Assembly: GCA_030690215.1 (NCBI GenBank)
Contig: JAUYHD010000011.1
Coordinates: forward strand, 1 to 55,030
Source of the DNA: a bacterium
GTDB lineage: Bacteria; Patescibacteriota; Minisyncoccia; 1-14-0-10-42-19
Reading direction: 5' to 3'
Length of the DNA: 55,030 bases
Shown here: positions 1,541 to 51,607 of the stretch, piece after piece
How the letters are laid out: every line of letters starts with the position of its first letter
How positions within the stretch are numbered: position 1 is the stretch's first letter
Notes under the pieces: generated by a model
Told to the model about the DNA's origin: nothing
Database searches by the model: none
What the model saw: only the letters and a program-made list of their open reading frames with translations
Program-made: the position numbers and the translations under genes

Positions 1541-1679
1541 CCCCGTAAGACAATATCGCATAATACGTCATGCGTTCGCCGCTCACTACACGCGCACTGA
1601 TTTGTTTTCTTGCTTTCCCAAAAATGTTGTTTTGTAAAATGACATATAAGAATGCATCATGCGATATTGCTCTACGGGG
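1541..1679 (+). mobile_element. Type A palindromic element, copy A1 (139 bp)
   Basis: CCCCGTAAGACAATATCGCAT...ATGCGATATTGCTCTACGGGG; TCAA on both sides (1537-1540, 1680-1683). Confidence 0.8.
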
Positions 1680-1684
1680 TCAAC

Positions 1685-1825
1685 CCCCGTTTGGCTAAAT
1701 CGAACCGTCTTCCTCGCTGCATCTACCAGCAAGTCTCGATGGCATACTCAACGGAACATTGCTTCTTCAATCATGAATGGCATTCCGTAAGACGTAGATG
1801 CGGCTTTCGATTTTGCCTAACGGGG
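1685..1825 (+). mobile_element. Type B palindromic element, copy B1 (141 bp)
   Basis: CCCCGTTTGGCTAAATCGAA...TTCGATTTTGCCTAACGGGG, TCAA on both sides. Confidence 0.8.
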
Positions 1826-1829
1826 TCAA

Positions 1830-1873
1830 CCCCATTAGATAGAGCGTTGCAAAGCCCGCTCATCTAACGCCCC
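1830..1873 (+). mobile_element. Type C short palindromic element, degenerate copy C1
   Basis: CCCCATTAGATAGAGCGTTGCAAAGCCCGCTCATCTAACG, right cap mutated to CCCC. Confidence 0.6.
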
Positions 1874-7939: not shown

Positions 7940-8056
7940 ATGTTTATTCCTACAAAAAATACGAATACTTACAAAATTACAAAAACCTATCCCACTCTTT
8001 CGTACGTTCGCGTATGTTTATAATTTCATAGGATTTCATATATTCGTGGGGGTGTG

Positions 8057-14915: not shown

Positions 14916-15054
14916 CCCCGTAAGACAATATCATATAATAAGTCATGCGTTCGCCGCCAAAAGCACAAAAACCATTGTATTTTGTTGTTTTTCCGGGAAT
15001 ATTGTTTCGCATAATGACTTATAAGAATGCATCATATGATATTGCTCTACGGGG
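14916..15054 (+). mobile_element. Type A palindromic element, copy A2 (139 bp)
   Basis: CCCCGTAAGACAATATCATAT...ATATGATATTGCTCTACGGGG; TCAA on both sides. Confidence 0.8.
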
Positions 15055-15058
15055 TCAA

Positions 15059-15097
15059 CCCCGTTAGAGCGTTGCAAGGCCCGCTCATCTAACGGGG
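15059..15097 (+). mobile_element. Type C element, copy C2 (39 bp)
   Basis: CCCCGTTAGAGCGTTGCAAGGCCCGCTCATCTAACGGGG; TCAA on both sides. Confidence 0.75.
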
Positions 15098-15101
15098 TCA
15101 A

Positions 15102-15382
15102 CCCCGTTTGGCTAAATCGAAAGCTGTATCTACGTCTGACGGATACTGTATGTGGTTAAAGAAACAACGGTCCGTTGAGCATATTGTCGAAATTTGCTGG
15201 TAGATACAGCAAGCCCCGTTTGACACTATCACATGGTAAGTCATGCGTTCGCCGCTTTTATTATGTGTATAGTAGATTTCTTTTTCATTGTACATATATT
15301 GTCCACACAAGGACTTACAAGAATGCATTATGTGATAGTGTCTTACGGGGCAAGGAAGACGATTCGATTTTGCCTAACGGGG
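15102..15382 (-). mobile_element. Type B element, copy B2, interrupted by A3
   Basis: Reverse-complement alignable to B1 when 15214-15350 plus one 4-bp duplication are removed; TCAA on both sides. Confidence 0.75.
15214..15350 (+). mobile_element. Type A element, copy A3 (137 bp), nested in B2
   Basis: CAAG-CCCCGTTTGACACTATCACAT...ATGTGATAGTGTCTTACGGGG-CAAG; 4-bp TSD. Confidence 0.85.
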
Positions 15383-23350: not shown

Positions 23351-23391
23351 CCCCATTAGATAGAGCTCGCAAGCTCGCTCATCTAATGGGG
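23351..23391. mobile_element. Type C element, copy C4 (41 bp)
   Basis: CAAA-CCCCATTAGATAGAGCTCGCAAGCTCGCTCATCTAATGGGG-CAAA. Confidence 0.8.
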
Positions 23392-30525: not shown

Positions 30526-30664
30526 CCCCGTTAGACAATATCGCATAATACGTCATGCGTTCGTCGCCTATCACACATATATTGATTTGTTTTCTTGCTT
30601 TTTCGAAAATGTTGTTTTGCACAATGACGTATAAGAATGCATTATGCGATATTGCTATACGGGG
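30526..30664 (+). mobile_element. Type A element, copy A4 (139 bp)
   Basis: CAAA-CCCCGTTAGACAATATCGCAT...ATGCGATATTGCTATACGGGG-CAAA. Confidence 0.85.
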
Positions 30665-35805: not shown

Positions 35806-35836
35806 GGGGGGGATTTAACTTGAATTCAGTATTTCG

Positions 35837-35909
35837 TCCGCCCAGCAGGATTCGAACCTACGACCTTCTCCTTAAGAGGGAGCAGCTCTACCAACTGAGC
35901 TATGGGCGG
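35837..35909 (-). tRNA. tRNA-Lys(CTT)
   Basis: CCGCCCA/TGGGCGG acceptor, GCTCAGTTGGTAGAGC D arm, CTCC-CTCTTAA-GGAG, GTAGGTTCGAATCCTGC T arm. Confidence 0.92.
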
Positions 35910-35925
35910 ACGAAATATTGGATCA

Positions 35926-36171
35926 TCAATTATTTAACATTTCATCAAGATATTTTCTGCCGATGCCTGATTTCAAAAAATTTTCGCGTTTTCTCGCCTC
36001 TGTTTTATTATCACATCCTTCTTGATAAATTAATTCAAAGGGCCCATTTCTTTTGGTGAATTTACTCGCACCATAATTATGTTGCTTCAACCGCTCTTTA
36101 GGTAATAATTCTGTACTCCCAGTATAGCGCTTACCATTCCTTAAGCTTTTTAATACATAAACAAATGACAT
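35926..36171 (-). CDS. GIY-YIG nuclease family protein
   Basis: MSFVYVLKSLRNGKRYTGSTELLPKERLKQHN...TEARKREN. Confidence 0.85.
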   Translation of the reverse strand: MSFVYVLKSLRNGKRYTGSTELLPKERLKQHNYGASKFTKRNGPFELIYQEGCDNKTEARKRENFLKSGIGRKYLDEMLNN

Positions 36172-36193: not shown

Positions 36194-36227
36194 TTTCCGC
36201 CATAGGCGGATCAGCCTCTGGCTGAAA
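36194..36227. repeat. Double-hairpin module, copy 2
   Basis: Identical 34-mer to copy 1, in the anticodon-loop position of a tRNA-Lys 5' part. Confidence 0.85.
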
Positions 36228-36320
36228 GAGGGAGCTACTCTACCAACTGAGCTAAGGGCGGACGCAATATCGGGACTCTACTAATTCCGACGCTTAATTC
36301 GGGACTACTAGCGGAAAATA

Positions 36321-36668
36321 TCAATTCTGACTATTTATTAGCCCTAAAAGCATTTTGGATATTTCTTCGTATTTTTCATAAAAATATCTGAATCGCTTTT
36401 CATCTATTAACCTATCATCATAAATTAATTCCAACAATGACACGCATTCGTACACGGAACCGCGAGCTATAATATAAAATCTTTTTTTATCTGGCTTAGA
36501 AAACTTCCCGCTGCCCTCGGCAATATTAATAACGCTACTGATTGACGCTCGTTTTAGCTGATCTCTAATATAAGAATCTATTCTTTTTTCATACCTCAAA
36601 AATAGAATTATCTCTCTATTCAGAACTTTTGCCTTACTATATACGGTCAATTTTTCAAAATCAAACAT
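36321..36668 (-). CDS. Four-helix-bundle (S23/TIGR02436-like) protein
   Basis: RDQLKRASISSVINIAEGSGKFSKPDKKRFYIIARGSVYECVSLLELI. Confidence 0.85.
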   Translation of the reverse strand: MFDFEKLTVYSKAKVLNREIILFLRYEKRIDSYIRDQLKRASISSVINIAEGSGKFSKPDKKRFYIIARGSVYECVSLLELIYDDRLIDEKRFRYFYEKYEEISKMLLGLINSQN

Positions 36669-36802: not shown

Positions 36803-37288
36803 TTACGTATGCCTATCGGCAAGCACGAACGCACCAAACGAGTACGGCTTTACCGCGGCTTCAAATCCGTATCCTTTCACCATGCCCACAACAGCATCTA
36901 TTAAATCACGCGTCGGGCCATTCTCGCCTACATCCAAATGAACCGTCAAATTATTGTTCCAAAAAAATTCTTCTCCAAGTTTATCCTTAAGGGCGCTTCG
37001 CAATTCCTGGGTAAATACAATTGACCGCATCGTCTCCTTAAAAATTCTGTCCTGAAGCGTCCCGCATTTTTCGGGCAAAGAACGCGACCAAAAATATCTC
37101 CCTCCATTCCCTATGCGGTGCACCCCCACCGCCGTCACAAAACATACTTCTTTTTCGGCGCGAGAGTCGCTCCCTACCACAATGTGATAGCGTACATCAG
37201 GTTTTTGGCGGATATACGAAACAAGCTCTTCTATGAGCCCATCAAAAGTAAAGCTTCCTACACTATTATGAAAATGTTGGTGAGTCAT
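36803..37288 (-). CDS. YkuK-like (DUF458) RNase H-fold protein
   Basis: YHIVVGSDSRAEKEVCFVTAVGVHRIGNGGRYFW...HLDVGENGPTRDLI. Confidence 0.8.
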   Translation of the reverse strand: MTHQHFHNSVGSFTFDGLIEELVSYIRQKPDVRYHIVVGSDSRAEKEVCFVTAVGVHRIGNGGRYFWSRSLPEKCGTLQDRIFKETMRSIVFTQELRSALKDKLGEEFFWNNNLTVHLDVGENGPTRDLIDAVVGMVKGYGFEAAVKPYSFGAFVLADRHT

Positions 37289-37289
37289 A

Positions 37290-37434
37290 CCCCGTTAGGC
37301 TAAATCGAAAAACGTCTTTCTTACAAAACCGCAGAAGATATTTCGATGTTTACCTTTGTTTGTACTTTTAATATTCATACTTTGTATTACCCCGCAAGAC
37401 GTAAAGGTTTTGCTTTCGATTTTGCCATACGGGG
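37290..37434 (+). mobile_element. Type B element, copy B3 (145 bp)
   Basis: CATA-CCCCGTTAGGCTAAATCGAAA...TTTCGATTTTGCCATACGGGG-CATG. Confidence 0.8.
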
Positions 37435-38771: not shown

Positions 38772-38942
38772 ACTATTCTATTCCTACGAAATTACGAACC
38801 TCTACGAAAGTACGAAATAGAAATTAAATTTTTTCGTACTTTCGCGCTTTTTCGTATGTTCATAGGCTTTATCTTTTTCGTATTTTCGTACAGTTTCGTA
38901 TGTTCGTAGGAAATCTTGCCATACGAAGCATGTACATCTATA

Positions 38943-48497: not shown

Positions 48498-49670
48498 CTA
48501 GGGCAGAAAAGCTTTAAACCAGCGCCACAAAAGCGAACCCCCTTTTTCAGAAATGCCTGCAAAAATACCGCGCTTGTTTCTTTCCTCTGATTCATACGCC
48601 AGCAAACAAAGCCCTGTCACTGCCGCAAAGCGCGGGTCAAACTCTTCTGCAAGACCCGATTCTTCTATCGTACGCGCGACTTCAACGGGTAATCGAAGCG
48701 CGCTCCGTCCCATTGTTTCAATATTGAACAAATGCGCCCCTCCGCCCGCAAGCACAACACCTCCCGGCAAAAGACCATCCCTATTAATTTTCTTTAAATG
48801 AGCGCCGACAGATTCAAATATGTCCCCCACGCGCGCGGCAATAATTTCTTCAATCTGTTTTTTATTTGAACCGCGAAACTGCCTATATTCTTGCTTTTGG
48901 CGTTCTGCCTCATCAAGCCCGATACGAAGACCGATTGCGATATCGTGGGTAATCGCTTGCGCGCCGATAGGAAATGCTTTGACCGATACCGGCAAGCCCT
49001 CTTCAAAGATCGCCGAACTTACGGTCCCCGCACCAATATCAAGCGTCATCACGCCAACTTCTTTTTTGTGGTTAGAAAGAATGGCGCGCGAAACAGCCAA
49101 AGGAGAAGCAACAACATCATCTACCGCTACTCCCACGCGCTCGGCGCACGCCGCAATGTGTTCTACGTGCTGGGACAGAGCCGTGATAAATATTGTTTCT
49201 GCTTCAAGGCGAGAGCCGGTAATGCCTACGGGGTTTCGGGTTACCAAATCTTTATCAACCCGAAATAAAAGCGGAAACCGATGAAGAATTTCCTTGTTAT
49301 GATGAGGAACAATGCTTGCGTAGCTCGCGTCTAACACCCGGCTCACATCGCGCTCGCTGATATCTCCTCCATTTGCGTATGGCAACACAATAGACCCGCG
49401 CGCTATCACCGAATCCAAGCTTGTCCCCCCATACGAAAAAAAGGCAGATGAAACCTTCACTCCTGCCATTTTTGTCGCTTGAAAAAGAGATTTTTTAAGC
49501 TGTAATGCTACCGCATCAACGTCTATAATGTCTCCTCGCCTAACGCCTTCGGATCGTACATCGCCAACACCCCGAATCTGCATGCGTCCTGTTGCGTCAT
49601 CCCACTCTGTAATCATCGTTTGGATGCTTGAAACTCCGATATCAATTCCTGTAGCAATGTGACGAGTCAT
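48498..49670 (-). CDS. ftsA: Cell division protein FtsA
   Basis: ATGIDIGVSSIQTMI, VGVMTLDIGAGTVSSAIFEEG, GGVVLAGGGAHLFNIE. Confidence 0.93.
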   Translation of the reverse strand: MTRHIATGIDIGVSSIQTMITEWDDATGRMQIRGVGDVRSEGVRRGDIIDVDAVALQLKKSLFQATKMAGVKVSSAFFSYGGTSLDSVIARGSIVLPYANGGDISERDVSRVLDASYASIVPHHNKEILHRFPLLFRVDKDLVTRNPVGITGSRLEAETIFITALSQHVEHIAACAERVGVAVDDVVASPLAVSRAILSNHKKEVGVMTLDIGAGTVSSAIFEEGLPVSVKAFPIGAQAITHDIAIGLRIGLDEAERQKQEYRQFRGSNKKQIEEIIAARVGDIFESVGAHLKKINRDGLLPGGVVLAGGGAHLFNIETMGRSALRLPVEVARTIEESGLAEEFDPRFAAVTGLCLLAYESEERNKRGIFAGISEKGGSLLWRWFKAFLP

Positions 49671-49671
49671 A

Positions 49672-49816
49672 CCCCGTTAGGCTACATCGAAAAACGTCTT
49701 CCTTGCAAAACCGCAGAATATATTTCGATGTTCACCCTTTATTGTACTTTTACTAATAATACTTTATGTTACCCCGTAAGACGTAAAGGTTTTGCTTTCG
49801 ATGTTGCCATACGGGG
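49672..49816 (+). mobile_element. Type B element, copy B4 (145 bp)
   Basis: CATA-CCCCGTTAGGCTACATCGAAA...TTTCGATGTTGCCATACGGGG-CATA. Confidence 0.85.
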
Positions 49817-51243: not shown

Positions 51244-51607
51244 GCCAAAAATTAAGGATTACCGCTTTTCACTAATAATTACTTTATATTATAGCCGAGC
51301 GGGATGACTATAATTTTTGAGCACCCCCTCCTTTTAGACGCTATCAGCACTTCGACTGATTCGCTTGCGGAGACGCCCCCATGAACTTTTGAACTTTTTT
51401 AATTGCCGTTCCCTATCCCGCGCGTCCTTCTCGTTTTGATATGCTTCATACTATACGATGCCTCTTATATCTTTTTCTCTTGTATGCGTTTTTGCTCGCG
51501 CGCGCAAATCTTTGGTATATCCCGTATATAAATCCCCATTGGGCAGTTTTGCAAGATATACATAATACATAGCGCTCAAAAGGAGGGGGTGGAGGTTCTG
51601 CCGCCAC

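Follow-up and report, generated by a model that had tools for sequence, protein, structure and literature searches.

Palindromic elements with crossing helices at start codons and -35 boxes of a Patescibacteria genome, and their possible mobilisation by a GIY-YIG nuclease

The DNA analysed here (the window, 55,030 nt) is contig C30 of a 1.02-Mb, 38-contig genome (G000) related to Candidatus Niyogibacteria. It carries a set of short palindromic elements of types A, B and C, single or in chains, among them the 145-bp type B3 element (Table 1). Blast searches of the same genome gave 90 matches to B3 and 63 to type A, partial matches counted. Loci (L numbers) are the regions taken around matches in genome contigs, and the relatives are coded G001, G002, G004, G025, G058 and G100, with G002 as the sister species. 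A covariance-model search found non-coding copies in seven genomes; a scan of reference genomes with the exact end pattern matched one record, Candidatus Niyogibacteria JACQLG010000063.1, and no viral contig. The window also holds two clusters of TTTCGTA-rich short repeats (38830-38910 and 7996-8032), which are mutually related though far apart. Two other identities for the palindromic elements were considered and dropped: a CRISPR or tandem array, because the copies are dispersed and stack only at the same target, and an integron attC-like site (GTTAGGC...GCCTAAC), because attC has its boxes in the opposite order and the elements come with target duplications.

Table 1 Features of the palindromic elements in the window
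Feature	Position	Strand	Details
Type B3 element, 145 bp	37290..37434	- (gene sense)	Flanks CATA/CATG, 4-bp target duplication with one mismatch
B3 outer stem arm, CCCCGT..GGC..AAATCGAAA on + strand	37290..37310	-	Pairs with 37414-37434
B3 outer stem, other arm	37414..37434	-	ATG in gene sense (CCCCGTATGGC)
B3 inner helix S2 arm, ACGTCTT on + strand	37312..37318	-	Pairs with 37396-37402
B3 inner helix S2 arm, AAGACGT on + strand	37396..37402	-	
B3 inner helix S1 arm, CAAAACC on + strand	37324..37330	-	Pairs with 37406-37412, crosses S2
B3 inner helix S1 arm, GGTTTTG on + strand	37406..37412	-	
B3 host gene, RNaseH-like PF04308	36803..37288	-	ATG 37286-37288 inside duplicated TATG
Type B4 element, start codon of FtsA-like gene	49672..49816	-	Duplication CATA/CATA
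B4 host gene, FtsA-like	48498..49670	-	ATG inside duplicated TATG; G002 site empty
Type A element, first of chain at -35 box	1541..1679	-	TCAA/TCAA; minus-strand promoter TTGATT-17-TACAAT
Type B1 element, chain with type A 1541..1679	1685..1825	+	
Type C short hairpin CCCCATTAGAT..ATCTAACG, chain with A 1541..1679 and B1	1831..1871	.	
Type A element at -35 box	14916..15054	-	TCAA/TCAA; minus-strand TTGACT-17-TATTAT
Type C short hairpin, chain with type A 14916..15054	15059..15097	.	
Type B2 element, interrupted by nested type A	15102..15382	+	TCAA/TCAA
Type A nested between B2 inner-helix arms	15214..15350	+	Duplication CAAG/CAAG
Type A element	30526..30664	+	CAAA/CAAA
Type C short hairpin	23351..23391	.	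CAAA/CAAA

The pairings of the original prediction are all present in the 145-nt element at 37290-37434, and so is their crossing order: in B3 the helices ACGTCTT/AAGACGT and CAAAACC/GGTTTTG cross inside an outer stem that keeps a 2-nt internal mismatch. Since the host genes of B3 and B4 lie on the minus strand, the strand first described runs opposite to gene sense. Alignments were made of 29 type-B and 21 type-A copies, with nested insertions taken out beforehand, and covariation was counted over the named helices as paired cells and both-side changes, with shuffles and slid pairings as controls. In type B, 95.0% of the cells at 33 pairs are paired (32-46% in the slid controls), 17 of the 33 pairs have changed on both sides (9.3 in shuffles), and there are 100 double-change cells against 30 +/- 4 in shuffles. 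All eight pairs of inner helix S1 (CAAAACC/GGTTTTG) covary, with the variants GTTTTATC/GATAAAAC, GTTTCATC/GATGAAAC, GCCCAATC/GATTGGGC and GCTGTATCTAC/GTAGATACAGC in other copies, as do five of the eight pairs of S2 (ACGTCTT/AAGACGT), with CGTCTTGC/GCAAGACG, CATCGTAC/GTACGATG and CGTCTTAT/ATAAGACG. The outermost pairs show a joint switch from C-G to T-A, the first pair in three copies and the second in one. In type A, 34 pairs are 95.8% paired and 11 covary, seven in the outer stem and four of nine in H2. Helix H3 of type A has no covarying pair and weak support from covariation, since its changes are all one-sided, with G-U, A-U and G-C at a single pair. The compensatory changes that had been claimed for both types are borne out in the outer stem and both inner helices of B and in the outer stem and H2 of A, and are weakly supported for H3 of A.

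The same crossing order recurs where the sequences are unrelated: in types A, B and D, and in copies from G004, G058 and G100. The crossing pairs of type D (L074 and L094) are GTTGTTC/GAACAAC with ACGCCT/AGGCGT, and crossing pairs of unrelated sequence were found in other genomes too. An order shared by unrelated families, with helices kept through full sequence turnover, is more than inverted repeats in double-stranded DNA need, as had been argued from the window copies. Against local shuffles, single representatives of B, A (L012), D and a distant genome gave p <= 0.008 for the crossing pair. Two type A copies (L038 and L047) were missed by the strict form of this test, as they require a G.T pair or a mismatch. 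The inner helices abut in type A and overlap by about one base in B1 and B2, and in the recombinant copy L009_445 the first helix is broken. RNA and DNA folding programs, which are unable to score a crossing pair, mostly picked one inner helix or the other; the pairings may form a pseudoknot or two mutually exclusive hairpins. The structural observation is correct, and for type B it is stronger than first claimed.

Comparison of copies and genomes identifies the 145-bp repeat as a non-autonomous mobile element, with both its mobility and its targeting evident from the sequences. Family ends are palindromic, CCC[CAGT]GT... (CCCCGT), and are bordered by a target duplication of 3-4 bp; terminal inverted repeats and a target duplication occur together in many copies, as in MITEs. 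Terminal-repeat pairs were collected without requiring a duplication, and of 70 pairs in the own genome, which include spurious and composite ones, 41 have a perfect 4-bp duplication, in all 41 of the form YNNR. The G002 orthologs of both window hosts have empty sites (TATACTAAAGTATATGGCGCG and TATAATAGAAGTATATGACG) where the genes of the own genome are interrupted: TTATAATAGAAGTATATGACG in G002 corresponds to TTATAATAGAAATACATG-element-TATGACT in the window, and TATACTAAAGTATATGGCGCG to TATACTGAATGTATG-element-TATGACTCG. Stacked copies have one target copy in common (CGGGG-CATA-CCCCG), and type A is repeatedly nested in type B, in the stretch between the inner-helix arms. That the 145-bp copies might be coding was considered and rejected: a frame from the captured ATG crosses some of them, but copy lengths of 142-147 do not keep frame, and so the copies are treated as non-coding. 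At locus L005 (G000:C15:13478-13629), two stacked B copies lie at a TGTG target within TGTGGATAA, which resembles a DnaA box; the neighbourhood has repeated TGTGGATAA motifs and is possibly a replication origin region.

Two classes of target are recognised, TATG/ATG start codons and the TTGA with which -35 boxes begin. Insertions of the TATG class fall exactly on start codons; many of those in the own genome follow a -10 box by 5-7 nt, and these sites appear to resemble leaderless genes. Among TATG duplication sites of several genomes, the ATG opens a frame of at least 60 codons in 24 of 37, against a background of 28% for all TATG in the window; at most of the remaining sites another stacked copy or the end of the contig follows, and one site has a complete L34-like gene of 45 codons. 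In the TTGA class, 16 of 19 entries have TANNNT at 15-19 nt spacing (10% for all TTGA in the window; about 16 of the sites are independent, because some entries have one promoter in common), and L196 of G100 also lies at such a site, TTGACA-16-TATAAT. Every time, the -35 box or start codon is formed anew by the duplication, and with the host signal restored, essential genes stay readable. Hosts of either class, assigned by eye from their first residues, include ftsA-like, rpsE, rplI, serS, lepA, groES and dnaE. The bases of the foot-proximal mismatch (AT/TA, AGAG/TCTT) are correlated with the class of target and not with the interior. A search of the open-access literature found no account of elements targeted to start codons, and a literature search for GIY-YIG palindromic elements returned nothing relevant.

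A larger relative of these elements has the same ends and encodes a protein. Three 299-bp elements of the own genome (on C18, C8 and C5) have CATA duplications and a 98-residue protein consisting of a single GIY-YIG domain (PF01541, 60.9 bits), for which the nearest solved structure by sequence is that of UPF0213 (PDB 1zg2, E 3e-5). The catalytic-motif residues Y14, Y25, G27, R35, H39 and E59 are invariant in nine elements, and relatives with E below 1e-20 are present in 96 of 383 genomes of the class. The ends of the coding loci are hairpins with 3-4 bp duplications. Analysis of flanks yielded about 20 GIY-YIG elements with inverted ends and a duplicated host start codon; chimeric controls score up to 22, so that the lower-scoring of these also lean on the start-codon coincidence. 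Their hosts, again by eye from first residues, include folD, groES, dnaE and hrcA. In nine of 14 coding elements examined, the captured host start codon opens the nuclease frame, which crosses one terminal repeat (MPRMAKSN..., MPSKTKSN..., MPSNTTSS...) and ends in or near the other, with its stop 5-22 nt before the restored host ATG; in the other five, the captured codon gives a short frame only.

Coding and non-coding elements are linked by their ends. In G004, the 21-nt ends (CCCAGTAAGACAAAATCGAAT) of a coding element are identical to those of eight or more non-coding copies, and in G058 the two kinds of ends are closely similar (CCCAGTACAATTA). Non-coding copies are also present in G100, G025, G001 and G002, genomes that yielded no GIY-YIG gene with matching ends. 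The coding relatives encode GIY-YIG only, with no known transposase inside matching ends. The sole candidate source of a TTGA-targeting enzyme is the GIY element L095, which has a TCAA duplication. No Rfam intron match that would place a group I or II intron around a GIY-YIG gene was obtained in the window. The coding elements share the outer stem, and no significant crossing pair was found in them; were the fold the substrate, coding elements would have to be recognised by the outer hairpin alone.

This linkage points to the GIY-YIG protein as the mobility enzyme, and types A and B are probably non-autonomous derivatives that it mobilises as folded single strands. In such a mechanism, the nuclease would mobilise coding and non-coding elements alike, and the moving form of A and B would be a folded single DNA strand recognised by its shape, hairpin plus crossing helices. 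The TATG or TTGA target would be cut with a stagger of about 4 nt, and gap repair would give the duplication. Template switching between the arms would keep them complementary and at times invert the interior, while the polarity of the folded strand could be fixed by its conserved foot-proximal mismatch. A more sweeping proposal, to which we give a little under an even chance, is that these elements form a class of transposable element whose sole protein is a GIY-YIG nuclease of about 95 residues. Members would insert at start codons (-35 boxes and tRNA-gene 5' ends in sister groups), borrow the host start codon, provide the host with a new one, and have non-coding partners moved as shape-recognised, pseudoknotted single-stranded DNA.

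The retained helices had been attributed to selection on a folded RNA or on single-stranded DNA. The RNA half of that claim loses ground to the target duplications, to TTGA sites upstream of the promoter and to the scarcity of G-U intermediates, and single-stranded DNA fits better. The outer stem of B has 14 double-change cells and zero G-T cells. Without the distant copy L099, single-sided departures in B comprise two G-T and ten A-C on the gene-sense strand, and the outer stem has neither kind. Type A has few single departures apart from one G-U pair, and double changes from A-T to C-G are abundant. Template switching between the arms of inverted repeats yields double changes without RNA selection, and inversion of the interior is another of its known outcomes (PMC8794818, PMC8604942). 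The interior is indeed found in both orientations relative to the element ends: the same two helices occur in opposite order in D L074 and L094, in A L039/L040 and L032-L034, and in G004 and G100. With few G-U pairs and with many double changes and interior inversions, as template switching gives, the fold is more probably a DNA-level feature than the outcome of RNA-level selection. A pseudoknotted leader or switch acting as RNA in host mRNAs is quite improbable in our judgement. It would suit the TATG-class copies, which lie in one orientation in what is probably the transcribed 5' part of the host gene, the covariation in type B, and RNA folds better than those of shuffles (z -3.3 to -4.6). 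Six A-C and no G-T departures in TTGA-class B copies, a weak strand bias, still lend RNA some probability. The TTGA class, however, lies upstream of the -35 box and would not be transcribed from that promoter, G-U intermediates are nearly absent, stacking and nesting are transposon-like, and both orientations of the interior are found relative to the ends. The Rfam scan of the window matched two tRNAs only, with no structured-RNA family above gathering score.

If template switching maintains the arms, the elements might be neutral MITE-like repeats, complementary through mutation alone and with a fold that has no function. Simultaneous A-T to C-G changes without intermediates and the interior inversions agree with this, but it covers the upkeep of arms and not two crossing helices beside an outer stem in unrelated interiors, and we regard it as unlikely. 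Movement by another enzyme has also to be weighed. REP/BIME elements are small hairpins thought to move in trans as single-stranded DNA through RAYT (Y1) transposases. A host Y1 transposase could likewise move the present palindromes, with the GIY-YIG gene as a passenger or as an independent element sharing the ends; the own genome has two RAYT-like Y1 genes, four of six relatives tested have Y1 genes (G001, G004, G025, G058), and REP elements, too, are short hairpins with foot sequences. However, no Y1 gene lies within or between element ends, the own-genome Y1 genes are unflanked by such ends save for one short hairpin 0.5 kb away, and none is present in G002 or in G100, the latter a genome with seven reported matches, some of them two strands of one place. 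Moreover, Y1/IS200-IS605 chemistry makes no 4-bp target duplications, which are present here. We hold this explanation to be improbable. An undetected ordinary IS (DDE or other) with CCCCGT ends is very unlikely as the parent: terminal repeats with a 4-bp duplication are typical of several IS families, but a search of the genome for DDE_Tnp_1 gave no match, and the coding elements with these ends carry GIY-YIG genes.

Mobilisation of folded single strands by the GIY-YIG nuclease, the reading that we prefer, has relatives among known systems. The present elements share with REP/BIME-RAYT systems a small hairpin form and a proposed movement in trans as single strands of DNA; target duplications are absent from REPs, whereas here duplications of 4 bp are found and the enzyme within the ends is a GIY-YIG protein. 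The Ssn nuclease family of Neisseria acts on repeated genomic sequences in single-stranded DNA. Ssn and the UPF0213/YhbQ-type single-domain GIY-YIG proteins have the same nuclease domain, but in the present elements the nuclease is encoded within a palindrome that has a duplicated target, and its gene makes use of a host start codon. Rickettsia palindromic elements are likewise palindromes of 100-150 bp that leave the host gene functional; they lie inside reading frames, unlike the elements here at start codons or -35 boxes, and no partner enzyme is known for them. With MITEs (PMC10969869), the family has in common short, non-coding copies in large number, inverted ends, target duplication, and nesting and stacking. 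It differs in that the larger relative with matching ends encodes GIY-YIG and no known transposase, in its start-codon and -35 box targets, and in its conserved crossing helices. GIY-YIG homing endonuclease genes are described in group I introns and in insertions of CPR rRNA genes (PMC11270868); they belong to the same superfamily, are mobile and occur in Patescibacteria, and one GIY gene of the own genome (L090) lies in a 16S rRNA gene, but here there are many ectopic sites with duplications in place of one homing site, and the window has no intron match. The family is a variant of palindromic non-autonomous elements with unusual targets.

Should the GIY-YIG protein indeed drive movement, the coding and non-coding elements would together make up a new class of transposable element, and GIY-YIG would join the enzyme superfamilies that drive DNA transposition. 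A selfish element would be spreading in a 1-Mb genome with little spare DNA, striking essential genes at the single position at which a duplication of 4 bp undoes the harm. The substrate would be a defined one, a folded hairpin with TATG and TTGA targets, and a role would be offered for the numerous small GIY-YIG genes of Patescibacteria.

Further GIY-YIG genes were seen in other settings. In the window, a GIY-YIG ORF (35926-36171) lies just upstream of tRNA-Lys (35836-35909, minus strand), and 36226-36273 is a 90% copy of the 5' part of this tRNA gene, as if the insertion had duplicated about 45 bp. Adjoining this insertion, at 36321-36668, is a four-helix-bundle protein of the 23S rRNA intervening-sequence family (PF05635/TIGR02436). 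Palindromic-end GIY-YIG elements also lie at tRNA-gene 5' ends in the own genome, G004 and G058 (L092, L210 and L211), and the GIY-YIG ORF of L090 (G000:C6:52437-52646), within the 16S rRNA gene, has the palindromic ends GGAATCCCCTCCTTGAGG / CCAAGGAGGGGATGACG. A decayed GIY-YIG ORF with one TAG is flanked by CCCCCTCCTTTT inverted ends at window positions 51382-51570. A GIY subfamily (L115, L146, L164 and L202) has ends (C/T)CCCGTTAGAGA and targets A^TGAA/A^TGAG; it inserts one base inside the start codon, and the element gives the first base of the new one.
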